Origin: Hyphochytrium catenoides
Taxonomy: Eukaryota > Sar > Hyphochytriomycetes > Hyphochytriales > Hyphochytriaceae
Assembly (NCBI GenBank): GCA_900088475.1
Contig: FLMG01001070.1
Location: forward strand, 1 to 64,000
DNA length: 64,000 nucleotides
Reading direction: 5' to 3'
The notes beneath the pieces are model-generated. The model was given only the letters and a program-made list of their open reading frames with translations, searched no databases and was not told where the DNA came from. Below, one piece after another: positions 1,182 to 47,626 of the stretch. The position numbers and the translations under genes were made by a program. The first letter of the stretch is position 1; each line of letters begins with the position of its first letter.

Positions 1182-4100
1182 ATGGCCTCACTCGTCTCCT
1201 CAGTCGAGGAGGCCGGAGCATTGGAGGCTGATGTCGCAGTGATTGGTGGCGGAGTCGTGGGCCTGGCGATTGTCAGGGAGCTGAGCCTGTCTGGGTACCG
1301 TTGCATACTGGCAGAGAAATCCACATTAGTCAGCGGGTGAGGCTTTATTCTCCATTTCTTTGGAAGCTCCGCCCCTCCTGCTTGACGATCATGCTAGAGC
1401 TCGGACTCCCGTCTGCTGGTCGACAAAACAGAACTGTGTCTCTGTCTCATAATTTGTGGCCTTCTCATCCTTCGCCCACGTCTCTACCCTTTTTTCTTAG
1501 AACTACACCTCCATATCTCTCTATTTTGCAAGCGTTCTCATCCTCTCTCTCTCTCTCTCGCTCGCTCTCTCTCTTTCTCTCCACACGAACACCTATCACC
1601 TTGTCAGCGCTAGCTCAGGGAACTCGGGCATTGTCTGTACGGGTTATGATGCTCCGGCCAACAGCCTGGAGGTGGGAGCCTCCCACGTTCCGTATTCACC
1701 CCACTATCCACACACCGTATTCCTCGTCCTTGCCATACTCTTTCTCTTGTTCTTCCTTCCTCTCTCCTTCTCTTTTCTCTGTCTGGTTTATCTCCTCCCT
1801 TCCCAAGTAAGGCTGGTGGTCACAACATTGTCTTCTCTGTCTCTCCACCGTTCTTGGCTCTCTTCTAATATCCTTTCTCACGTCTCTTGCCTATCTCCCT
1901 ATCTGCCGGATCAGCGTCGACTTCTCGCTCGGAGTTATCGTCTCCTGGCAGGAGGTGAAGCAGGGTCGCCAGAGGGGCTACTTCGAGCTTGGAAGGTTCC
2001 GCATAAGAGGAGCGGTAGCCTCATTGTGGCCTGGACGAACGAGGAACTCTCTCGTCTACCAGGTGTGCCTCTGTGTGTCTCTCTTATTTCTATCGCTACC
2101 TCCCAGGCGTTGACTCTTTTCTCCCCCTGCTCTGTTCCTGCTCCCTCTCTCGGCTCTGGCTTTCTTCTTTCTCTCTTCTCCTCGAATGAACGGCATTAAG
2201 TCATAAGTCTCTCAGTAGTTCGTGAGATTGACCCATATCGTTTGCTCGGTCTCTCCTCCCAAATATTCGCTCTAAATATTCGTAAATACCTTTGGCTTCA
2301 GAGATTCTAAAGGAAGTCCATGAGGCCGGTAAGGCTAAGAGAGAGAGAGAGAGAGAGAGAGAGTAAAGCCACTTAGCTCCGCGCGCATTGCTCGTTAGAA
2401 CTCGTCCTCCGTATCCCCAGCTAAATTGTTCTGTTAGCCTTTGAATGACCGTCAAAGTGGTCTTTATTGTGCTTCGGTAACTCTACCTTCCTCTTTGCCT
2501 ACTCTTACTCTCTTGATCATGTCTTTCCGCAGGAGACACTTCTTCCCGCATTGTGTCTGGCGCGGAGTTACGTGATATGGAGCCCAACTTGTCGTCTCAG
2601 GCTCTGGGAGGGTTACACGTCGCGGGGGAGATCGTCTTAGACCCTTGGCTATACTGTGCTGCTCTTGCCCTGGATGCTGAAAATAACGGTGCAGCTTATC
2701 GCCGTCTCCTTGGCAGTCATCTTTATCCTTTTCTGTAAAGCCTTCTCTCCACTACCTTTTGTGCAGTCTGGCTTGCCCGTCTTTCTCGTCCAGTGCTAAA
2801 CCTACAGGGTTTTACGGTAAGCACATACCTTCGGGCTTACATATTATCTGCTGTCATCACCTAGGCGCGCTTCTTTTAGAGCACTGGGAGGTCGCGAGTT
2901 GCGAGCGAGGTGAGCTCCCTGGTGCCATTGACTCTACTGATTACGGAAGAGGAGACAATCACAAGGAAGGAGAAGGCAGGGTCGAGAAGGGTTGGATATT
3001 AAGGTCGAGCCTCAGCCGAAGGACCATCCGGAGCCGTTTAGTGGTTAATTGTGGAGGGCTATGGGGAGACAAGGTGGAGAAAGCACGGGAAACAGTGCCG
3101 CATTTTCAGGTCTTGTGCAGCTTCGTCGTCACAGTTCCCGGTAATCCGGGATAAGTTCTCCGGTTGTCAATCGGCCCTTCTCCTCTCGTGCGAGGCCATC
3201 TTTTGTTCCTCTTCTTGTCTATAAAATAACATTTCCTGGGCGGCCTAGCACGACATCTATCAACCCCATCCCTTAAGATGTTTCTCAGTCATACTCTTCC
3301 GTCTTCTTACCTTTGTCAGTCAATGTCGCATTCTCTCTGGACTTAATGCAACCACTTAACACCATGTTTTTTCTTAGATACATCCTCGCAAAGGGCAGTA
3401 CTTGATCATGGAGGCTGACGAAGTGCAGCAAGCGCCTCTTCTACATCACCCAATTCAGCCAATACCTTCAGACAGGACCAAAGGTGCGGGGACATCACTG
3501 ATTAGACGTCGTCATTCTCTAATGTCCTTCCTCCTTACATTGTGCAATAGTTGGACCACAATGTTCATTAGTGGGCAATGCTTGACGCTTCTTAACCTAT
3601 TGTCAGGTGTTTATGTCTTTCCATCACTCTACGGACAAATCCTTGTGGGGCCTACTGCTGAAGACTGCGAAGAGAGGGAGCGGAAGAAGGAGTTGGCAGA
3701 TCCAAAAATAGCTGCCCTCCTTTTTGAGCACGGAAAGCGCGTTGTACCGCGCTTAATAACAGCAAAAGTGGTGGGCGAGTATGTAGGTATTAGACCTGCC
3801 ACTCAATATAGAGATTATCAGATCAAGGTGAGCCCCTGTCTGGCTGGTCGACCTGGGCTCCTAAAAGGGCGGGGGCAAGCGTATGACTATGGGACAAGCG
3901 GAGATAGAGGGCAGTATAACAGACAAAGGACGGACGAAAAGAGAGGACTTAAAACTTTGCAACAAAGAGAGGAGTGACGGGGAGCGAAGTGCTGTGAGGA
4001 GGAGGGTCGGTGATTAATATAGCAGAATCTAACCCAGGGATCGTCTCCACAGCTGGACATCGAGAGCAACTGGATCACCGTGGCAGGTGGATATATATCA

Positions 4101-14792: not shown

Positions 14793-17644
14793 ATGGCGGG
14801 CCAAAGGTAAGAACTGAAGATTGATAGTGTAGGGCAACTTATGGCGTCTGCTATCCATTCTAACGGCAAGGTTGTCACTCTGCTGTAGGCAAGGATCCTA
14901 CAAACTCAGTGCAAAGGGATCCAATGCAGAGAGCTTTAAATCTGCTCACAGCACACAAAGCCCTGCGCTAGTCTCGTCCTTACCTAGCCACAACCCGTCC
15001 CTCGTTGGCGCTTCGGAGTCAAGCGCGCCGGACTCTCCCGGAGTGAATCATGACACACAGATCCCAGTAACAGGAATCAAGAAAGAAAGCTCTGAAGCTG
15101 TGTTGAATGAGCCGGAAGGTGAGGAGAGAAGGTTTAGCCAAGAAAGGAGGCCGGCGACATCCGAGAAGGCAGTCTTGAGGATAGTGGAAGGGGAGAAGGA
15201 TAGAGAACAGACCAGCACGTTCAGTGCGTCCACCTATCATGAGACGATCGGAACAGACTATGGCAAGTCGACTGCAGTCTTTACCGAGGATGACACCGGC
15301 AGCGTGGAGAACGACGGGCAGCCGAAGAAGCAAGTGATAGGTAGGCAATAGAAGACCACTTCAACTGCACAATCTCTCTTTGGTGTCACAGTCCTTTGGT
15401 ACTGGCATGTCTCTGTCCGAATCCTCACATAATATCGTCTGTTGTCGTCAGTTGGACGGTGTACAACTGAGAATCATGTCTCCTTCTTTGCATCCTCTGT
15501 ACTATTTCTTCTCCGTTGTCCTCGCCACCTGACGGATCTCTATCTTTTTTCTCTACGCCGCCTCTGCCCCGCCAATGCGTTCAAGTCTAACGTCGTCTTA
15601 ACCTTAATTGCTTCCTCCACGTTCTCTATGTAAAGCAGAAGAAGAATCAGAGAAAGAGAGTCACGAGTTTGATCACCCTACGTTATACTTGGATGACCAT
15701 GGCGTTCTGCGCCATAAGAACTCTGACACGACGGTGACGGATGTGGAATTCTACTCGTTGGGCGAGGAGCTCTTGCACTCGCTAGAGGAGCATGTAGAGA
15801 GCAAGATGATGCGCCAGTTTGGCCTTAAGTGCTTTTACATGCCTTCGAAGGAGGCATCTCTACACTCCACACTCTTTGTCTCTGAGGACTACCAGCGATG
15901 CGATAAAGTTGTGGTCTTCGTCGGTGCATGCCGTGGTGCACGACCTGGTGTATGGAGTCGAAGTGTACTCGTTCGACTGGGTATCCAGAAGGGCTCTATG
16001 CTACCGTACTTTGCGGTTGCCCAGAGTCAGAACTACGGGATCGTAGTGCTGAATCCTAGCAACACAAGCACGCTGACGACGGACCCGGTGACGGGTGAAA
16101 AGGTTAAGAGGCTTATACCATGCTCTTCAACTCCTGAAGAGCATATGGTATCAGCTTGGGACTATTGCCTCGCTGACACCCATGCGAGCAAGATCTCCTT
16201 TGTCTGCTATGCCTACGGGGGGCTGCTGACCAAGCATCTGCTAAGAGAGAGGCTGCCGGAGATTTTCCCCCGCTTCAACGGCGCTGTCTTTATTGAGTCA
16301 AACATTTCTGTCCTGGACACTGATCCCAATGCCCTCCAGAGTATGCTGCTGCAACAGTGCATTCGGTGGGAATCTTCATATGAGCCGTTTGGCTCACTGA
16401 TTTCCAACGATCCCAATGCCTGCGTCATCCTCTCTGCAGCAAAGAAGCCAAGCGACCATTCTAACTCGGGCTACCTGGTGGACAGACTTCTGTTTCAGTC
16501 CTTCAACTTCTTAGAATATGGCAATGCCACCGTGTTTGCCACAGAGCTCGCTAGGCGGCTGCGGTCCACAAGAACAAAGAGTGCCCCGGACAATGCGGAT
16601 GTCCATATTACCCATCGACAGTTCGATAAGCTGACTGTCGAAGACTTTGAGTTGCTGAAGGTGATAGGCAAGGGTGCATTCGGGAAAGTGATGTTGGTCA
16701 GGAAGAAAGAAGGTGCGAACGTCGGAGAGATCTTCGCCCTGAAGGTGCTGAAGAAAGCTGCAGTGTTCGCAAAGAAGCAGGTCGACCACACGATAACGGA
16801 GAGAAGAATCTTGAAGGAGATCAAGCATCCATTCATTGTCGACCTTCGCTTTGCCTTTCAGACAGACGAGAAGCTCTACATTGTAATGGACTATTACCCT
16901 GGAGGCTCTCTCTTCTTCCATTTGAGGAAATGCCAGAGATTTAGTGAGGGCAGGGCCCGTTTCTATGCGGCAGAGCTGCTGCTCGCTCTCCATCACCTGC
17001 ACAAATATAACATTGCCTATCGGGATCTCAAGCTTGAGAACATACTAATGGATGCTGAGGGCCATGTGGCACTGACGGACTTCGGCTTATCGAAGGAGAA
17101 CGTAGAGGTGCCTGACAGCGTTAAGACTTTCTGCGGTACAGCAGAATACATTGCTCCGGAGCTACTCAGGGGCCAGGGTTATGGCAAAGCTGTTGATTGG
17201 TGGGGCTTCGGCATCTTGGTCTACGAGATGATTGCGGGCCGGACACCATTCTATGACAAGAACAGGAAGCGCATGTTTCACTTCATCCTTCACCGGGAAG
17301 TCGCCTTTCCGCCCTTCTTCTCTGAAAATGCGAAGTCTCTTCTCGTAGGGCTTCTGAAGAAGAGTCCTTCAGAGAGACTGGGTTTTAAGGGCTGGGAGGA
17401 GATCATAGATCATCCCTTCTTTGCAGAGATCGACTTTGATGCGTTGATGAACAAGCAGGTGACGCCGCCGTTCAAGCCACGGGTGGCCGATGAGATGGAT
17501 ACAGGCAACGTAGCAACAGTCTTCACGCGCGAAGTCCCTCAGGACACGCCGGTGCCTAGAGGTCAGATGGACGCTAAGCAAGCCAAGGCTTTTGAGGGCT
17601 TCACCTACATTCCTGACAGTCAGCTGAATGTGCCAGGAGCCTAG
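14793..17644 (+). CDS. Arb2/FAM172-like domain fused to AGC protein kinase, 3 exons
   Basis: Exons 14793-14806, 14889-15340 and 15639-17644 give 2472 nt, exactly 823 aa. Residues 1-160 are Ser/Glu-rich and disordered-looking. Residues about 165-470 match the Arb2/FAM172 alpha/beta-hydrolase domain: PTLYLDDHGVLRH, then GVWSRS, GSMLPYFAVA, YGIVVLNPS, STPEEHMVSAWDY and CYAYGG. The last is the nucleophile elbow, where FAM172A has HSYGG; here the serine is alanine, so hydrolase activity is probably lost. Residues about 490-750 are an AGC kinase: GKGAFGKV, FALKVLKK, AYRDLKLENIL, DFGLS and TFCGTAEYIAPE with a T-loop threonine. The C-tail has a turn motif (QDTPVP) and a hydrophobic motif (FEGFTYIP) as in S6K/SGK/Akt. 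All kinase catalytic residues are present. No PH or C2 domain is seen; the Arb2-like module occupies the regulatory position. The fusion lies inside one 2-kb exon, so it is not a splicing artefact. Confidence 0.95.
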
Positions 17645-20632: not shown

Positions 20633-22366
20633 TCAGCTAAGGACTTCATGTTGCTCTCTTGCTTCTTCGGCTAGAGCAGACTTCGCGAAGTTCTTCACAG
20701 CCCGAAGCTGGAGCTCTTCCCTATTTAGTGGACGATCTCCATCATCCACCTCCGACTCATCTCCAGAATTGAGATCTTCAGCGGCCGGTGCAGACACTTG
20801 TAGCGGACCTAGGAGTGGAGATTGCTCTTGCTCCACTATCGTGGATCGGACAATGTCATCTATTGTCCTGTCATCGCCTTCGGGCCTTGAGAAGTCTGTG
20901 AGTTTCTGTTCAATGATCTCTAAGCACTGCATAAGGTTAGAGGCCGTAGTTCCTTGCACAGGCATCTCTTCCGGAGATCCAGTCGCATCTAAGCGGTTAA
21001 AGATACTCTGTATGCCACCCTTGAGTACATTCAGCTCTTCCATCGACTCTTCATACTTCTTCTGATACTCGACTATGTGCACCTCGGCAGCGAGATACTT
21101 AGCGTCCAGCGTGCGAAGTAGCTTCTTACGCTGGGCATCAGTGTTAAAGTCTTGGCCCTTTAGATGCTCCAGTTCTGACTTCCTTTCTATAAGACGAAGC
21201 TCGACCCGTGCGATTTCAGAGTTGAGATTGTTCACATACTTATACAACGAGAAAATCTTGTCCTCCCCTTCAAGAAATTGGTCGATCTAGAGAGTGGAAG
21301 CGTTATAGAAAGTCCATTCGCGGAAGAACAAAGTTAGAAGAAGCTGAGTGGTACCAGGTAGAGACCGAACGAAGAAGAAAGGCAGCAAGAGCAGTTAGGT
21401 TTAGACCCACGAAGAGACATGGGGCTGCTGCAGTACACTTGGAGGAGTAGTAAACGTGAGAGAGTGTCCTACCAGACTATCAACATCCAGCACACCGTCG
21501 GCATTTCTCAACATCTTTAGTTGATTCTCGTACTGCTGGAGCTTCTCGCTTGTCAGCTTGGTCTTAGATTTCTCGTTGAGAAACTCCCATTGTGACCTAA
21601 TGACTCTTTTTTTGATCTTATCCTCTTGCTCTACGCTCAGAATGCCCACAGGATTGGCCAGGCTTTCCTGAGACACTGCTCCTTCAACGCCTTCCTGAGC
21701 CCTTTGGAGCTTTTTCTTCTCATCGGATACCGCCTGACCCAGTCTGTCCCATTCCGTGCGGAAGTGTTCCCTTCTTAGCTTGGCTTGCTCATGGAGGGAG
21801 CGAAGTTTAGCGTGACATTGGTCTCTCTCATCAAGCGCGGCTCTGGTATCTCGGAAGGACTGTGCGATCTCTTTCTTCATCTCATGGATCTGTCGTTCCA
21901 GATTGCGATATATCTTGTCAAAGCAAGCTCTGTCTCGTCTGTAGCTGTTGATCTGCTCTCTCACGAAGTTATTCTCACTAATTGTCTTGTTTAGCTTCAT
22001 CAGTGCCTTGTCAACCCGCTGATGGATTAGCTTTGACTGCTTCGACAGCAGAAGGTCGTTCTCCTTGAAAGCATTAATGCCTCCTCCTACTTCTTTTCTC
22101 TCCTCTTCTACCCGGGTCTGCAGCATGCGAAGCCTTGCCTGAGTTTGCTGAACCTTCTTTTTCTCCGCATCACGCTTCCTGGCATAGACGGCCAATTGGT
22201 CCTCTAACTGCTTTAGTACTTCCGCTGCAGCGAAGGTTTGGTTGGGTTTCACGCTCTGAACACGATTCACTAGCTCAATTCGGAGCTCCTCCGTCTCCTC
22301 CTTGAACTTTTCAACTACTTGGTGCTGCTCCTGCAAAGACCTGGGCAAGCGCTTGAGGACAGGCAT
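20633..22366 (-). CDS. Outer dynein arm docking complex coiled-coil protein (ODA1/CCDC63/CCDC114-like), 2 exons
   Basis: Exons 22366-21473 and 21286-20633 give 1548 nt (515 aa), phase-0 junction. The protein is coiled coil almost throughout. Around residues 130-240 it has NFVREQINSYRRDRACFDK, IYRNLERQIHEMKKEI and a Phe/Glu/Trp segment (FRTEWDRLG). This matches the diagnostic core of Chlamydomonas DCC2/ODA1 and animal CCDC63/CCDC114 (ODAD1), which anchor outer dynein arms to axonemal doublets. Exon 2 continues with FLEGEDKIFSLYKYVNNLNSEI, also family-typical, and ends in an acidic, disordered tail. The start ATG is at 22366. It implies motile cilia or flagella with outer arms. It is convergent with the RPA-like gene, with stops about 290 bp apart. 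Confidence 0.85.
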
Positions 22367-22985
22367 GGTGTCTGACTTCGTTATCCGCCCTCTGTCCGAG
22401 TTCGTTATGCTTCTCTCTCCTCTTCAAGGTAGATACTTGCTAAAGGGAGATTTAGTGAGACGCCCCTCCTCCCTGCCCACTGCGTACAACCCAGCCACTG
22501 ATGGGTTTGCCTGGAAAGGGCGTAGCTAGGCCTTAAGTGCGACCAAAACCGGCATCTTTATAAGACTCTAGTGACGGTATGAATGGCGGTGGTCAACGCT
22601 CCATGTTATGTGGTGTTTAGAGCGGTGATTGACATTCAGCTTGAGTAGGCTTCCGAGGCCTTCCAAGATCTGCTTTCTCTTTCCGCTACGTTGAAGAGTC
22701 CATCCAAGCAAGCAGGCAAATACAACGATGGTACGTTGTCACCCTCACAAGGTCTAGCGTTACCCTTGTCTCGTCCTCCTGGAATCTTCCACTTCACCGT
22801 TCCGATTCTTGCTCCTTGCAGCGATACAAGTTCTCTTCCTCCTTCAAGTCTTTCCTTCCTCCGTCTCTCCTCTTTAGCTCCAACTCATGGAGCCTCTCTG
22901 TCTTTGTCATGCTGTGCCAGGATGGTGGTGGATCTCCCACGGACATTTCCCCCCTCTCTCTTCCGCTCTGTTTATCAGTGTCTGT

Positions 22986-23024
<39 letters not shown>

Positions 23025-23794
23025 GTCTGTCCCCCTCTCTGTCTCTATCTCTATCTCTCTTTATTCTCCCTTCCTCTGCTCTGAGGAACCGAGGGGCCGA
23101 GGGTCACAGGGAGCGAAGCGGCAACAGAGAGCTTCTGACGCTTTCGACCTTGTAACGCTAAAGAAAGGCATCCAACGCAGTAGTAATGCAACAAAGATGG
23201 TGGTCTCATTGTGGGCTAACCCAGACATTTACCTGTAGTAATAATAGTACAGGGCAGAACTACCGTTTTGACTGAACCTCGATAACTGACCAGCTACTGC
23301 CTATGATTACTGATTTGAAGGAGACGTTAGCGGAAGGCCCATTGAGTTTGGTTGAGAGTTTGTGAGTTGTGAGTGTGAAGGGAGGAGGATAATTAAAGAG
23401 GAAGAGCGAGNNNNNNNNNNNNNNNNNNNNNNNGAGAGAGAGAGAGAGAGAGAGAGAAAGAAAGGGGCAAACGGGGAAAGACAGAGCAGGAAAAGATAGA
23501 GGGGAAAGGAGCATCATGTCATTCCAAGAGCAACAGAGATGAATGGATCCGTTGAAGGTTGAAGACACACAGACTTCGACGTCCAGCTTATTAGCTTGCT
23601 CGCACTACCAGCCAGGCAGAAAGGAGTCTTCACTGCGAAGTCCAGCAGGCTTTCATAGTCCAACTCTGCAAACCTGCAGCATTCCATGGCTTAGAGAGAG
23701 CGATTTCACCACGTTAGCTTGCCATACGCTCTCCCTCTTAGGAGAGACATCCTAGCTCTTTTCTCCTTCGCGAGCTGACCCTCTGGCGGAGAAG
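22367..23794. other. Divergent intergenic region with CT/GA repeats and a gap
   Basis: About 1.4 kb between the starts of the docking protein (-) and the HDAC homologue (+). It contains pyrimidine-rich sequence at about 22.84-23.07 kb with TCTG and CT repeats (densest at 22986-23060), the 23-base N gap at 23411-23433 and a GA run right after it. No coding exon is recognised. Confidence 0.6.
23411..23433. other. Assembly gap (23 N) at a GA repeat
   Basis: Twenty-three undetermined bases, bounded on the right by a GA dinucleotide run to about 23458. The repeat is the likely cause of the gap, so the true length is uncertain. Confidence 0.98.
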
Positions 23795-26334
23795 ATGGCT
23801 AAACGGGTGCACTATTACTATCATGGTAGCGACAAGGACCCTCGTTTCTTCCTTGCCATCTTTATCCCGCTCGCGGGGTCTACCATGTTTTATCTTATCG
23901 CCTTCTGCTATATCTGCAGCCTTCTGCTGCGCAATTTGCTCTGTGTCTCGGAGTTGCCTTACTGCTCACTAGCTCACCATACGTTGCACACCTCCTTATC
24001 TCACTAGACGATATTGGCAACTACTATTTCGGTAAGGGCCATCCCATGAAGGTAGGCTCTTCAAGGTCTCAGTAACATATCTCATGGACGGTGTCCCTGA
24101 CCGCTAATGACCTTAGCCACACCGCATCCGCATGACCCACGAGATGTTGAAGAGCTACAAGCTTCTCGGTGTCATGGAAAGAGCGGTAGGTTAACCCACA
24201 GTCGCAGCAGGAGTTCACGGATGCATCATCTCATGTGGGTGGGCAAAGGTAGATTGACGAAGAGGTGTATACCTAACACATGTAGAGTTCTCATCAGGGA
24301 GTAAGGGACGGACAGTCCAATGACAAGGCAAGAGGATGGAGGAAAAGGGAGAGAACGTAGAAAGCGTTGAGAAGGTACATCTGTCTATAGGAGGATGTGA
24401 AAGTGTGAGAGCAGGAGAGTAGTCCTATTCTATACTAAAGCTTCTGAACAAGCAGCAGATGGAGCGAGCCCTCTCAGCCTTCGAGATGATGAAGTTCCAC
24501 TCGGACGACTACGTCTCGTACCTCCAGGCACCACGCAAAGATGATATTTCGGGAGATCTCAAACGGCTAAAACATTGTACGTAAAACCTTTGGCGAAGGC
24601 AACTCAGCTTAACTTCATGAGCCAAACAGTCTGGGATCCGTCGAACTCACTCTGATCGATGCCGTTCTTTTCACCTTCCTTCCGCGCCCCCGCATGCATC
24701 TGTATCTCTTGCTTTACCTGTTATAGACAACTTGGGCATGGAGTGCCCACTATTCGATGGAGTTTTCGAGTACTGTCAAATTGCCGCCACAGGCTCTGTA
24801 GTTGGTGCACGTAGGCTAAACGAGAAGAAGGCCGATGTCTTTATTAACTACAGCGGCGGGATGAGCCTCGCTCGGCGGTCGCAGAGCTATGGCTTTTGCT
24901 ATGTTAATGATAGCGTTCTGGCCATCTTGGAGCTCTTGCGGTAAGGAGGTCTGCCCACTCGTTCTGAACGAAAGTGCTCCTGTTAATTGGAGGCCGCGTT
25001 CTCGCTGCTTCTTTCCTCTGCTCCCCCGTGCCCTTACTTTGATCTGTTTCATCTTGAGTGCAGCACAACTGCTTGTTTTCCTCACGTCAACGCTTCCCTT
25101 GGTCTGTTGGTTCACGTGGTGCTTCCTGTATGCGATCCTGGCGTTCGTGTCAATACTTCTGGCAGGATGCGTCATTGTGCGGATAACCAACAGCCGATTG
25201 CCCCATTCGCAGGGCTCATCGGCGAGTTCTTTACGTAGATATAGATGCCTTTCACCCGTTAGGTGTGGAGGAAGCCTTTTATAGCACGGACCGAGTGATG
25301 ACCCTATCGTTTCATCAAGAAGGGAGCACAGGGCATATTGACGATATTGGAGTCGGGAAGGGGAAGGGATACGCGGTCAATGTTCCCTTTAAAGACGGGG
25401 TGGACCATAACACATACCTCTCACTCTTCAAGCCAGTGCTGCAGGAGGTTTTAAAACGGTAAGTGCAGAGCTAATCGTGTTTGGTCCTTTCTACTGTGAA
25501 GTGGAAGCGACGAATCTCTACATCAACTCCTCTCTGCCTTCCGCCTTCCCTAGCTCCCCTTCTTTCCCTGCCCGTAGCCGCGCTTTTCCCACTCTCTCTC
25601 ACAAAAGGCTCTAGCAGCTCTAGGAGATCGCCTTATGGCATGACCCCATATCTCTTTCCTTCCTCCTCTCTCTTGGCTGATCCTCAATGCCCAGGTTCCG
25701 CCCCGAGGCGATTGTCTTTCAATGTGGAGCGAGCTGTTTGGGTGGAGACCGGTACTGCAGGATGAATCTGACAGCTGAGACCGTCGCGGAGTGCGCGAAA
25801 GTCTTGAAGGCTGCCGCTAAGCCCTTATTAGTACTAGGAGGCTCAGGGTTCACTCTCAGAAACGTATCGAGGTGCTGGACCTATCTTACAGCAACACTGC
25901 TAGACAGACAGCTATCGCCGGTCATTCCCGATCACAAGTACAGCGATTACTATGGACCGGACTATGTTTTGCTGGACAGGTCCGAGCTGAGCTCGCTGAG
26001 CAACGAAGACCTAAATGACAGGTAAATTGTGGGCCAAGGGACGTATCCGAGAAAAAATTGGTCACTTATTGAGCTGGTTCGAGCTAGTTTTCAACAAGGT
26101 CTAGGATCAGACTCAGGGAGAGAAAAAGGGAGACGACATTCAGACGCTGAGAAGAGAGATAGAAGAGAGCCATGGAGAAGAAAGTGGGAGACAAGGGGCC
26201 GATGCGGTTAGCTTTGGGGAGCTCTTAGCAGTACAGACATTGACTGATGTTTTCACGCCTACAGAGATACGTTAGCTCGGAACCTTAGGACCATTGTAGA
26301 GAACATCCGCAACTTGGTTTTACCTCGCCGATAG
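23795..26334 (+). CDS. Class I histone deacetylase homologue (Rpd3/HDAC1 type), predicted catalytically dead, 8 exons
   Basis: Exons 23795-23825, 24008-24051, 24117-24185, 24459-24576, 24727-24940, 25213-25458, 25695-26021 and 26265-26334 give 1119 nt, exactly 372 aa. Family hallmarks are preserved along the whole length: [98 protein letters not shown] and YYGPDYVL. The active site is not preserved. The tandem His of GGLHHA is GGMSLA (about residue 130). The zinc-binding DIDIHHGDG is DIDAFHPLG (Asp kept, ligand His to Phe). The third ligand in CGSDSLSGDRLG is lost ([13 protein letters not shown]), and the catalytic Tyr of GGGGYT is Phe (GGSGFT). The loop after SFH is about four residues shorter. 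An intact frame with intact introns argues for a maintained pseudoenzyme. The C-terminal disordered tail of HDAC1 is absent. Confidence 0.93.
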
Positions 26335-26494
26335 TGAAGTATCGGCTTCACTGAAGAGGACTTGGTTGTGGGGAAGCAGAAAAAGAGTGAGCTGGATCGC
26401 TCGTTGTATATATAGTTACTGAGGATGTTACATAAGGTTAATAGCAGATGTCAGAAAAGTTGAGAATGCCGCACCAACGAGAGCGAGGCCGCCG

Positions 26495-29359
26495 CTATGA
26501 TAGTCTTCCCCAAGGGTAGAGAAAGTCCTCTAGCTCCTGCCTTAGCGCTCCAGACACCTTCAGGCAGTCTCTATAAAGCTGACTTCGCATATATTCACTG
26601 TCAGACGCCCAGCCTACCCTCCTGTACTTGAAGGGAGAGACACTCTCCACTGTCGTCTTCTCCAAATCCGTCAAGAGCTGATCGAGCTCCTCCTCTCCGT
26701 CAAATAGCGTGCCTGTGAGGGAGGTCCGGTCATTCAGATTTTCTAGGTCCTCCACGAGTTTCACTCTAAGATCCCGTGGGAGCCCCGCGATCGCCTTCTT
26801 CATCCTTAACATCCGCCGCCAAACTGCCCGCAGAGCACTGAAGGAGCTTTTGGCCTCTCCGTAGCCATACCACAACGTCCCTCGCCCATCCTTGACATTT
26901 TCCGTGTGCCGATGGTCTAAGGATGAATATGATGGAAGTCAGTCTCTAAACCCTATGAACCGTCTTACCAAGAGTCTAATCTCTAACGCTAAGACTTATA
27001 AGTAATCCTATATGTCCCTTCCCACCCTGAGACATCCCAGATGAAGACAAAACCAGTTGCACTGCCTATATTGAGTTCCAGGATACTCTAGTTTTCTTTT
27101 CCCGTCGAGCCATATGTACTTACAGGAGATGGTAGCAGCTGCTGAAACGCCAAAAAGAGCTCCTAGAGTCTCTGCTATGTCCTTGTCGCTCTTCTGCGTG
27201 TAAACAGATTATAGGCAGGTTGCAGAAGGAGATTTCGCTCAGTTTCGGCATCATAGAGGTCATTATACAAGGGAAACGCGGACGCTGCGTAGGAGAAGGG
27301 CTATTGAATGAAGGTACAGAAGACAACGAAGAACAGTTACTCAGTGCGCAAGATCCCTAAGGATGACGACAGAGCAACTCAAAAAAGACAGGAGCATAGT
27401 CAGAGATAGGATAGAGGTAAAGGACGCATGCACAGACCTGGAGCTTCGTGACTTTCGTATGTATGAGGTTGCAAACCTCCAAATTAGCCTCAGACAGTGC
27501 TCCCCAAGTCAAGTCCGTCCGGCTCAATTTCATCTCTTTGATAAAGAGCTGGTCATCGTCAAGTAATGGCTTCTCCTCTACTTTCTTGTCCTGCGTTCTC
27601 TCCTGCTTGTTCTCTCCATTTTCTGCATTCTCTGACACTCTCGAATTCTCTGGCCGTGTCTCAGGCTGAATATCCTTTCCTCCAACTTTCTTTCCGGGGT
27701 TTCCAGTGACGTCCATGGCCTTTTCAGCCTTTCCCTCTGTGTCTCCAGCCTTTCCTTCTTCGGGGGGGTTACGACTGTCTGCCAGCGTTTGCTCGCCGTT
27801 GTCTCTCTTTGGCTCCGACTCCTCAGGCTTCATGTTCTCACTCTTCTCTATTCTATCTGATGTCGTAGGGTTACCATCATCGGCTCTATTACTCTTACTT
27901 TCCAGCTCCGGTCCAGGTTCCTGCAAGGTCGTCTTTCCATTCTGTGCCTGCTGCGGACTATTTCCATCCGCCTTGGCATCACGCTCATCACCTTTGCTAG
28001 GCTCCTCAGGCTCCTTCTTTCCCCCTTCCCTATCTACCTTTGCTCCGGTCTCTGCTTTCTTCTCAATCTCGGTTGCCTTGCTCAACCCATTTTGAGCTTT
28101 CACCGGCGCTGTACCATTGAGCGCACCGTTTTGGCTCTGCTGTAATTGCTGAGTCGAAGGAGGTGGCCTTGTGATCCCATATATTCTTGCCCACCGCGCC
28201 CTAACGCCTGTCAAGGGGACGTGGTTAGTATGATACTGACTGCCAACTCCAAGGCGCTATCATGGGAAAATCTACGTTGTTGCCTTCTTTGTTAATCTAT
28301 GTGTGTCCTTGCATTCAGGCCTTTGGGACACCGAATCCTCAAATAGTAGCAGCTCTTCCTCCAACCTAAACCTGCGCAGGAACTACCTACCTTTGTTTGG
28401 ATTCATCGAGAAAATGCTGTACGCTTTCTCAAAGTAGAGCTGAAAGGCTGCATGGTACTTCCTCAGCCCGAGCGGAGAATGTAGATCGAACTTCCGCAAG
28501 TCTAGGCCATCCACAAATCCTGAATTTACTGGGAGGAGAAAAAAGGTTCTCATGTTAGGCAGCTCTCTTAGTGTCTTCTTTGCCCGTCCTTATTCTAAAG
28601 TTCTCTTCATACCACTTGGCTCCCCTCTCCCTCTCCTGGCCCCACTCCCCTTTGCCCCAACAGAATCACCATCTCTCTCTTCCCCTGTTCCCTACCTCTC
28701 TACGACCTGCTCTATATGTGAGGATGGCAAAGTATACTGCCACTGGCCTCTTTCGCCCTTCCGTACATCTTTGCTAGCTCTAATGCTCACTTGCAATCGT
28801 ACACTCGCCGCACCCCCAACGCACAAGTGCACCGGTTCTCTTACACGACACCCCGTCCCGCGGAAACCCTACGTTAAGCAGGACCCGCTTGTCCACCTCC
28901 ATGAGAATGCCCTATCCTAATCCTCCGGCTCCCTGTCTCTCGCTTCTTTCTCTATCTCTATCTCTCTCTTCGTGGGCCTTGTCCTCTGTACGCACCTAGA
29001 CTTCCGTTTGATTCCGTGAGCACGCGCTTTTTGGGCAGCTTGTCAACGGTTGTGGCAAAGTTGCCGTCCCTCTTGCCTAAGTAGCTGCTTCCAGGCGTCT
29101 CTGCCTTTTTCGCTATTGCGCTCATGATACCTGTCTTGGTCTGTAGAAAGGAATCTGTGTTGACCTTCACGGCAGTTGAGGAGCTACCTGTCCCAGGTGT
29201 CGAAGTTGAGCCCGTGAGGTCCACAGATGAGCTATCAGCGGTTCCCGGAGTAGAGGACGGCTTTGGGGCGTGCAAGGCCGCATGAGTGACGCATACACCA
29301 CCTGCAATTTGGACTATTGCCCTCTTGTTGCACCCTGGCGTGGTGCAGGTCTTATACAT
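26495..29359 (-). CDS. Unrecognised multi-exon gene with one WRKY19-type zinc finger
   Basis: The first exons are well supported: 29359-28996, 28528-28391 and 28207-27438, with phases that fit. A later exon near 27185-27120 reads SDKDIAETLGALFGVSAAA, and the last exon, about 26890-26495, ends in FLYPWGRLS. The exons between were not fixed. Residues 1-30 contain CTTPGCNKRA...GGVCVTHAA, the Cys-x4-Cys ... Cys-x2-His pattern of the WRKY19-like zinc fingers common in stramenopiles and plants. A Ser/Thr-rich linker follows, then GLRKYHAAFQLYFEKAYSIF (a helix-rich block), and a roughly 190-residue Glu/Lys/Pro-rich low-complexity region. After that come structured segments including SRTDLTWGALSEANLEVCNL. 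The overall family is not recognised. The architecture suggests a nuclear or scaffold protein, but no function is assigned. It is convergent with the HDAC homologue (stops 160 bp apart). Confidence 0.65.
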
Positions 29360-45539: not shown

Positions 45540-47626
45540 AGCTCTCCCCCTGGACTCGAAGATACATATCCTTCCTTTCACTGATGTTCTGACCTTGATG
45601 AGCATCATCATCAGTACAGGAAGAGATTCTCCTCGGGAAGAAGGAGGAGGGAGGAGGAGGTGAACCCACCAGCCACAATGTCATCGCCATCAAGCGCGAC
45701 GCCGCGAGCTGCGAGGCAAGCAAGAGACTCCAGTTGGTCAAGAGGAATACGCTTCAGGAGCTGAAGCGCAGGAATGAATTGCCAGAAAGGTTCTCGTGTT
45801 GTGAAGGTGTAAAGCCATGGCCAAGCGAAGCGTCAAGAGCAGAGCGGTCACACTGAAGCTTCACCAGATGTCCTACACAATCCACGATGCCCGGCATAGG
45901 TCCCACAAACGACTCCCAAACTAGCGGGACAAAGTGCAGCCCTACAGCCTTACAAGGAACCTCATAGTTCTTCGGCTTCGCTTTCTCAGACAAACGACGT
46001 TTATAGCCGGCATGGACTGCTGCATAAGAAAGGGTTCTGGATCCCAGCGAGTCCGTGACAGACACATGAAAGACCGTATGCTGAACAAGGCCGGAGAAGC
46101 CAACCACAAATCTCCCAGTTTCCAGAATTGACCTCGGAGGGAGGTGACGGGGTTCGCGAGAGACTTTGACTTTGAGAAAGCTTGAAAGAGAATGTCCTGA
46201 ACACGACGATGACGCTGATTAGCGCCACCACCACGGCGACATAGGATACCGTTATCTCCAAAAACATTCATAGGACACGAGCAGATCTGGCAAGAACCAG
46301 GAACAAAAGAGCGCACAAGAGGGATCCCAAGCATTTCGGCACAACATCACCCGGAACACCAAAGGGGACGAAACCTTCAACGGCAGCCAGGGAATAGGAG
46401 CAGCCCGAAGGAAAGCCCCCGGATCCGGGAGAGAAATAGCTCGTAAGCGAGCCTTGGACCGCAATCCAGGGTAGCGGAAGACAACAAGACATTGGCAGAC
46501 GCTGACCAAACAGACCGTGACAGGTAGTGCTGCAGCTTAGTCTCTTCTCGAGAGATTAATCGAGAAAAGGGCACACGCACTTCCGCATCCTGGACATCAA
46601 GGGCATGCCAAAAGACGTCAAGCAGCTCCCAGCTAACGGGTGGAGAGTAAGCCTCGAAGTCGTCCCGCATACGCAGGAGTTGCTTGATCAACGTGGCCGA
46701 GGCACCAAGAGAGCCAAGATAGGCCGGAAACGCCAAACAGGCGGAAGGCGCAAGGCCAAGGCCGCAGCGGACAGGGAGGATAGCTTTTTTTGCCAAACCA
46801 GATCCGGTACAGAAGGGAGATCCAATAAGCGAGCAAGGAAGCCACGTAGACGGATGCCAAGCTGAGAACACGGAGAGGCCAACCGGGAAGGTGGACAAGC
46901 ACGACGCAAGCGGTTGATATTAGGGTTACAACCACGAAGGAGACAAAGGTGGATCTCAGGAGAGGATCCAAGACTGAGCTTCGCGTCTACATCATCTAGA
47001 CGAGATAGGACAGAAGAGGCATAAGGGGAGACAAACGAAGGAGAACCAATGTGTACACCTATTCCACGCCATCCACACCCATTAGACACCCACAACACGA
47101 GAGACCGCCCCAGGTAAAACCGGAAGTGCGCAAGGTCCATACTGGGCCACCAAAGCTCACATTTGCCAAGGTTGAGCTCCAAACCAGTGTGTGGGCTGCG
47201 GTCTTGAAGGAGGGCAAGGGCCGCAGCGACATCATCTACGGAGCCAATAATAGTACCATCATCAAAGTACCAGGCGTTGAGATCCAATGAAAAAACAGAC
47301 GCAGCAATGTCAGAGACAACGGAATGGAGAGCTGATGCGAATAGCAAAATACCTAGAGGGTCACCTTGCTCGAGACCGCAGGAACTTGCGAGCAGATCAC
47401 AGCCATGGAACAGGTGGGACAAAGTGGAGTAACAATAGGTGACCCAAGGGAGAAGAGAGGGAAAGCACTCACCGACGCCATCCACGCCATCCAGATAGCT
47501 GAACGGTGTACTCACTTGAAGGGGTTCTTGATGCATTCAGCAGAACCCTATCCTTGCTGGGAGGCCGTTACAAGGTTCTGCCGAAGGTTGACCTCAAGAA
47601 TGTCTTCAACTCAGTACACCGTTCGG
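45540..47626 (-). mobile_element. Degenerate non-LTR (LINE-type) retrotransposon, 5'-truncated with inverted 5' segment
   Basis: Read on the minus strand from about 47515, several frames joined by frameshifts carry reverse-transcriptase hallmarks: LLPWVTYCYSTLSHLFHG, GLEQGDPLGILLFASALH, the YFDD catalytic box (NAWYFDDGTI) and a thumb segment. These are followed by a C-terminal Cys/His motif (CPMNVFGDNGILCRRGG ... RHRRVQDILFQAF) at about 46.30-46.20 kb. An endonuclease-like tail with NYEVPCKAVGLHFVPLVWESF lies at about 46.0-45.9 kb. The 3' end, near 45640, is followed by CCTCC-rich sequence on the element strand. The RT segment just upstream of the minus-strand part (LPKVDLKNVFNSVHRS) is present at about 47512-47626 on the plus strand. 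The element is therefore split by an inversion (see findings). No intact frame; presumed dead. Confidence 0.87.

Follow-up and report, generated by a model that had tools for sequence, protein, structure and literature searches.

Gene structure and family of the HDAC homologue

The window, that is the whole stretch of 64,000 nucleotides analysed here, carries a class I HDAC homologue of eight exons on the forward strand (23795-26334). Several other features accompany it. A single 678-residue frame at 15608-17644 (+) joins an Arb2 domain (PF22749), a domain known from yeast Hda1, to a protein kinase with a C-terminal extension; by reading, the kinase appears to be of the AGC type. On the reverse strand, the coiled coil of the outer-dynein-arm docking protein ODAD1 is matched by two open frames within 20633-22423, which cover consecutive parts of it, and the organism therefore probably has motile flagella. 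An open frame at 46688-47536, also on the reverse strand, weakly resembles a reverse transcriptase, with a Pfam score under the cut-off. Neither an alveolin nor a light-harvesting protein was found in exon-wise searches of the genome, which makes an alveolate or a photosynthetic alga an unlikely source and together with ODAD1 points to a flagellated heterotrophic protist. No 5.8S rRNA turned up among the 39 candidates scored out of 1017.

The exon model of the HDAC gene was built manually and then checked by spliced alignment to human HDAC1. With HDAC1 as query, the aligner reached the first six introns and differed from the manual model at a single site, the exon 4 acceptor, placed at 24441 manually and at 24459 by the aligner. 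The former is in frame and adds six residues, giving a product of 378 rather than 372 residues. We preferred 24459, since the product then matches HDAC1 in length and the intron takes the column and phase that it has in P14, a class I paralogue encoded on contig C966. All seven introns are bounded by GT-AG and no stop interrupts the spliced reading frame between its ATG and its terminal codon, so that the intact frame over eight exons given in the original prediction holds. Runs of N occur in the window, none of them within the gene, and repeats of the CT/GA type lie upstream of it.

Exon 1 (23795..23825; all exons are on the forward strand) bears the start codon and is followed by an intron that coincides with one of P14 at column 10, phase 1. 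The 3' end of exon 2 (24008..24051) carries the basic-patch Lys equivalent to HDAC1 K31, and exon 3 (24117..24185) has a Leu codon at 24165-24167 in place of HDAC1 Tyr48, an ELM2-C contact. The intron before exon 4 (24459..24576) is also common to P14 (column 48, phase 0). Exon 5 (24727..24940) encodes GGMSLA and the unchanged motif GFCYVND; its 5' intron is shared with P14 (column 87, phase 1), and its 3' intron with a second paralogue, P18 (column 160, phase 2). DIDAFHPLG and the alignment gap left by deletion of the F205 loop, at 25327/25328, are found in exon 6 (25213..25458). Exon 7 (25695..26021) has Ser for D264 and Phe for Y303 and retains R270, R306, Y333 and Y336. The stop codon lies in exon 8 (26265..26334), where the chain stops with the domain; the protein has no acidic C-terminal tail of the kind that P14 appears to have.

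The 378-residue version of the protein matched Pfam PF00850 with 210 bits (6e-62) over profile positions 1-298 of 298, and 178 of 360 aligned residues (49%) are identical to human HDAC1 (PDB 5icn_B). Among the best 60 of 136 matches to solved relatives, HDAC1 and HDAC2 came top, followed by Rpd3, Clr6 and HDAC3. The class I scaffold is thus preserved end to end, and alignment to HDAC1 confirmed that the neighbouring motifs GFCYVND and RCWTY are kept, both as originally predicted. In a seven-row tree, in which P13 and P15 were flagged as long branches, the protein grouped with HDAC1, P14, P18 and P15, apart from the class II and bacterial rows; these five class I rows form one group, within which the tree singles out no paralogue as the sister. 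Loss of the inositol-phosphate patch, the HDAC8-like trait as defined from P15, is not seen in the window protein, which retains this patch.

Other HDACs of the genome

A PF00850 search of the assembly (42.5 Mb, 1105 contigs) returned 32 exon-level matches, which were grouped as 12 loci including the one in the window. Three of the others encode class I relatives. P14 has complete motifs and looks active; P18 (contig C1094), whose 5' part is a run of N, is a second active-looking class I paralogue; P15 (contig C964) is HDAC8-like. An additional, apparently active class I HDAC elsewhere in the genome was therefore found, twice over, where the original prediction had called for a search. Ten of the 11 other loci have an intact DxDxHH motif, nine of them within one exon and L016 in a spliced model, the exception being L023 on contig C369. 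The tandem His was recognized by motif in 7 of the 11; it is altered in L023 and was not located in L017, L020 or L021. A search of the genome with the window protein itself, which gave 23 matches at E up to 1, revealed no second copy of it.

L023 (contig C369, about 2750-3880) is likewise a degenerate HDAC, though a class II-type one. It has GHGVGRHG in place of the tandem His and DWGRYTGQGT in place of the DxH zinc motif, and retains the second zinc Asp (SASFDS) and the Tyr (EEGY); the hand-spliced peptide matches PF00850 at 3.9e-17. The introns of P18 (contig C1094, 1000-6500) are 179-597 bases long and rich in CT/GA repeats, similar to those upstream of the window gene, unlike the introns of P14, which are short (61-207 bases). 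P14 also has a two-residue insert before DCPVFDG, presumably reminiscent of alveolate and stramenopile HDACs.

Replacement of the catalytic centre

The catalytic centre of HDAC1 is a textbook set of eight residues. Compared with human HDAC1, the window protein carries the replacements H140S, H141L, H178F, D181L, D264S and Y303F, which leaves D174 and D176 as the only catalytic residues of the eight. The tandem catalytic His have become Ser-Leu within GGMSLA (24855-24872, codons 24864-24869). In DIDAFHPLG (25238-25264), Phe stands for H178 (25250-25252) and Leu for D181 (25259-25261), with D174 and D176 retained. In CGASCLGG (25723-25746), Ser replaces D264 (25732-25734), and in GGSGFT (25837-25854) the transition-state Tyr303 is a Phe (25849-25851); all four motifs are on the forward strand. 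The zinc ligands D176, H178 and D264 thus read Asp, Phe and Ser, only D176 being left of the three. The spliced model places all four altered motifs where the original prediction had seen them, and the damage goes further than that first reading, since the charge-relay Asp181 is also replaced and a five-residue deletion takes out the loop that bears the tunnel residue Phe205. Around the active site, D99 is changed to Glu, L271 to Tyr and G301 to Ser. The pocket residues G149, F150 and C151 are retained, as are the residues that we take to form the distal metal site. Read from the sequence, zinc binding and catalysis would both have been lost.

None of the eight catalytic positions is altered in P14, P18 or P15, the class I relatives encoded elsewhere in the genome. 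Across 102 columns identical in human HDAC1 and these relatives, a set from which the N-terminal columns of P18 (5' part unassembled) and P15 (5' part unmodelled) were left out, the window protein keeps 2 of 8 catalytic positions versus 73 of 94 others (Fisher p = 0.004). With a wider background of columns shared by human HDAC1 and P14, the comparison (2/8 vs 155/259 kept, p = 0.068) is only suggestive, and a 13-residue pocket set with 3/13 vs 154/254 kept (p = 0.009) was picked post hoc. The other lost conserved columns were not clustered along the sequence near the catalytic residues (4/21 vs 14/73, p = 1). As judged from these alignments, the catalytic changes are not family-wide drift, because the relatives keep all eight positions and the window protein loses catalytic columns preferentially.

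Could alternative exons or sequence errors mask a normal, active HDAC? The acceptor of exon 4 is ambiguous (24441/24459) and the window contains runs of N, if none in the gene. However, the altered residues sit within three long, contiguous, homologous exons, and the genome search with the window protein yielded no further piece at the locus. A three-frame scan of the forward strand from 23001 to 27000 found no canonical DxDxHH; its one HHAK is a chance, out-of-frame occurrence within exon 4 that lacks any HDAC context. We regard an annotation or assembly artefact as extremely improbable.

A different proposal is that the protein was neofunctionalised as a binder outside corepressor complexes, with a rebuilt pocket (Ser140, Leu141, Phe178, Leu181, Ser264 and Phe303) that accommodates another ligand, such as a small molecule or a lysine in acylated form, and does not hydrolyse it. 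The replacements at the former metal site are largely hydrophobic, and G149, F150 and C151 still line the pocket, as such a binder might require. Against this, the acyl-lysine tunnel has lost its F205 wall through the five-residue deletion and has a rim altered by L271Y and D99E, and the hydrophobic fill would resemble the packing of an emptied metal site more than a ligand site. Loss of the F205 loop together with L271Y makes acyl-lysine reading through the usual tunnel unlikely, and with Phe at the zinc-site His178 as well, the acyl-lysine reader that had been suggested as one possible role is disfavoured. We consider a ligand-binding function of this kind unlikely overall.

Selection or decay

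Four of the seven introns of the window gene share column and phase with a paralogue, three with P14 and one with P18. A processed pseudogene or retrocopy was ruled out, as the gene has seven introns, four of them at shared sites.

The window protein is about 50% identical to both P14 and P18, and dS was saturated (NG86 = -1), so that codon-position counts and a neutral simulation stood in for dN/dS. At codon positions that are identical in P14 and P18, the window gene departs from the shared base at 71 of 204 first, 52 of 230 second and 50 of 90 third positions (34.8%, 22.6% and 55.6%). Second positions thus differ least, a pattern expected under purifying selection. The contrast is weaker for the window gene than between the two paralogues, with differences at the three positions of 42.6, 31.2 and 62.4% for the window gene and P14, and of 24.6, 15.6 and 66.7% for P14 and P18. 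When the coding sequence of P14 was allowed to drift neutrally, by substitutions only and with insertions and deletions ignored, 47, 7, 0, 0 and 0 of 400 runs were still free of stops at 90, 80, 70, 60 and 50% identity, respectively. GC3 is 0.606 in the window gene, 0.556 in P14 and 0.62 in P18, and the GC content of the window gene introns is 0.50; this is a weak argument, because another gene of the genome (P13) has a GC3 of 0.52.

The protein has evolved fast. Its end branch measures 1.03 changes per column, compared with 0.22 for P14 and 0.18 for P18, and 110 of the 267 columns at which human HDAC1 and P14 agree are changed. Both figures, like the codon-position contrast that falls below that of P14 versus P18, are what one would see in a silenced, functionless duplicate that by chance still lacks a stop or frameshift. 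Such a gene would nevertheless have had to keep a frame that survived in just 7 of 400 neutral runs at 80% identity, with indels uncounted, whereas the window gene stands at about 50%; furthermore, every splice site is intact, second codon positions change least, and 73 of 94 deeply conserved columns elsewhere are kept, yet much of the divergence could predate a recent loss. A decaying gene is accordingly a rather poor explanation, somewhat less probable in our estimate than the ligand binder. The alternative, that purifying selection has preserved the product of the window gene as a folded protein, is supported, not proven, and some of the selection signal may date from before the catalytic loss. 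Taken together, a frame that stays intact after splicing, introns in common with paralogues, the pattern across codon positions, the simulation of neutral drift and the presence of active-looking paralogues argue for the selected pseudo-deacetylase that was originally proposed.

Pattern searches revealed no orthologue in viral contigs (three matches, none related) or in prokaryote genome contigs (seven matches, one relative). The prokaryote relative is a bacterial class I-like protein with 32% identity, which served only as outgroup.

Corepressor interface and candidate partners

Class I HDACs act within corepressor complexes. All six residues of the basic patch, G27, K31, R270, R306, Y333 and Y336, are kept in the window protein; G27 and R306 we take to be patch contacts. 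The codons of four of them lie in exon 7 on the forward strand (R270, 25750-25752; R306, 25858-25860; Y333, 25939-25941; Y336, 25948-25950). In SANT complexes, the basic patch of HDAC1/2 is described as binding inositol phosphate, with R270 and Y336 contacting InsP6, and HDAC1 R270A as lowering kcat only about twofold (PMC4848466). In the SIN3B complex, Sin3 residues E456, D457 and E461 are reported to touch HDAC2 K32 and R271, in the same patch, directly (PMC10156912). According to PMC12448893, HDAC1 Y333 and Y336 are required for both kinds of partner, ELM2-SANT and SIN3, while Y48E abolishes ELM2-SANT binding and not SIN3 binding.

We compared the retention of these surfaces with that of background columns, using interface residue sets that are small and partly assumed, and with statistics that are correspondingly weak. 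The patch is kept at 6/6 positions vs 151/261 in the background (p = 0.044), and at 4/4 vs 107/166 with a stricter background (p = 0.30). The SIN3B contact set, defined from PMC10156912 with HDAC2 numbers minus one (K31, R270, L161, E185, F187, Y188 and N349), is kept at 6 of 7 positions, N349 being replaced by Ser (p = 0.245). Two of six residues at the ELM2 surface are kept (p = 0.236), with Leu for Y48, Ala for Y166, Glu for K126 and Arg for K144.

Retention of the patch is not automatic, because the HDAC8-like P15 has lost it and has Pro, Ala, Ser and Glu at positions 270, 306, 333 and 336. P15 nevertheless keeps five of its six aligned SIN3B contacts, including N349, so that those contacts which lie outside the patch have no discriminating value. 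The patch is complete in P14 (six residues) and, as far as its sequence is assembled, also in P18 (four residues); since the patch is present in these two as well, it gives no pointer to the HDAC preferred by Sin3. At the ELM2 surface of P18, position 48 is unassembled, and 126 and 166 also differ.

Candidate partners are encoded in the genome. A Sin3 gene with a HID and a C-terminal domain lies on contig C207, the only place matched in the genome, and the CEDERFE stretch of its HID reproduces exactly the E456/D457/E461 triad of SIN3B (numbering checked against 8bpa_A). The genome also contains two ELM2 matches. One is in a 641-residue open frame, L027 (contig C157, 115-2040), which by eye has an N-terminal BAH-like stretch and whose composition suggests an MTA/RERE-like protein.

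These ELM2 matches, and the retention of the inositol-phosphate contacts Y333, Y336 and R270, would suit a subunit of an ELM2-SANT complex (NuRD, CoREST or MiDAC-like) instead of a Sin3 one. The losses at Y48, Y166, K126 and K144 speak against such a placement, as does the effect of Y48E, which blocks ELM2-SANT and not SIN3 in HDAC1 (PMC12448893), with the caveat that Y48L is not Y48E. An ELM2-SANT subunit is in our view improbable, about on a par with a decaying gene. The replacement of Y48 by Leu therefore leads us to lean towards Sin3 over NuRD, CoREST and MiDAC, the contrary point being the change of N349 to Ser. Of the Sin3/NuRD-like scaffold suggested originally, the Sin3 side is plausible, if indirectly so, given the kept patch and the presence of a Sin3 gene; the NuRD side is less favoured, in view of the loss of the ELM2-specific Tyr48.

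Discussion

On balance, we lean towards the window protein being a selected class I pseudo-deacetylase that serves as a structural subunit of a Sin3-type complex. An intron-bearing class I HDAC gene would have been duplicated long ago at the DNA level, and the copy would have lost zinc binding and catalysis and then been retained as a folded protein under purifying selection. The protein would fold without zinc and probably stands in for an HDAC in a corepressor complex of several subunits, with the Sin3 type as the likeliest, to which it may attach via the conserved basic patch and the surrounding surface. There it could occupy a second, catalytically silent HDAC position as in Schizosaccharomyces pombe SIN3L; alternatively, it could lower the activity of its host complexes, as engineered dead HDAC2 does in mice, and perhaps acts as a dominant negative in a Sin3-type complex.

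Several known systems come close to the window protein, and two of them, the blocked Clr6 of S. pombe SIN3L and the engineered dead HDAC1/2, are precedents for such an HDAC position. Like the Rpd3/HDAC1/2 enzymes of class I, the window protein has the whole domain, GFCYVND, RCWTY, the basic patch and the distal metal-site residues; unlike them, it has lost six of the eight catalytic residues, the F205 loop and the C-terminal tail. In S. pombe SIN3L, one Clr6 copy is described as open and one as blocked, plugged by Rxt2 (PMC10115800). The blocked Clr6 resembles the window protein as a class I HDAC copy in a Sin3 complex with a blocked active site, but it is the product of the same gene as the open copy, whereas here the loss would be written into a separate gene. 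From the contacts of Clr6 F147, F202 and L268 reported in that source (PMC10115800), loss of the F205 loop and L271Y would leave an Rxt2-like plug without a pocket in the window protein.

HDAC10 has a pseudo-deacetylase domain, an HDAC fold without catalysis. It is similarly a natural non-catalytic HDAC fold, the difference being that it forms the second domain of a longer, class IIb chain and is no free class I protein. Class IIa HDACs keep their zinc site and exchange mainly the Tyr for His; the likeness here is that of an HDAC fold used as a recruiting module and not as an enzyme. The class IIa domains of HDAC4/5/7/9 have been called pseudo-HDAC domains, which recruit SMRT-HDAC3 (PMC4498904; the term is also used in PMC4719423), and the Tyr/His exchange is reported in PMC12383505. 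In contrast, the window protein belongs to class I and has lost zinc ligands, both His and a relay Asp. Dead HDAC1-H141A and HDAC2-H142A are described as still entering corepressor complexes (PMC4719423); these are laboratory point mutants, whereas the window gene is natural and has most of its centre replaced.

Natural HDAC pseudo-domains are thus on record for class II, and for class I there are engineered dead mutants. Among the open-licence papers listed by word match, none was met on a natural class I HDAC with a lost catalytic centre and a kept corepressor surface. In such a protein, what HDACs contribute structurally is separated from their chemistry, which is relevant to the purpose of the blocked HDAC in SIN3L. 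Zinc-chelating inhibitors should not bind it, which could make it a natural control for inhibitor studies. That one of the class I HDAC genes of a eukaryote has come to encode a catalytically dead protein dedicated to the Sin3 complex is a tentative idea that may well prove wrong. If true, the window protein would correspond to the blocked second HDAC in SIN3L, with the block fixed in the gene itself, and the second HDAC position would be a structural one, able to evolve free of catalysis.
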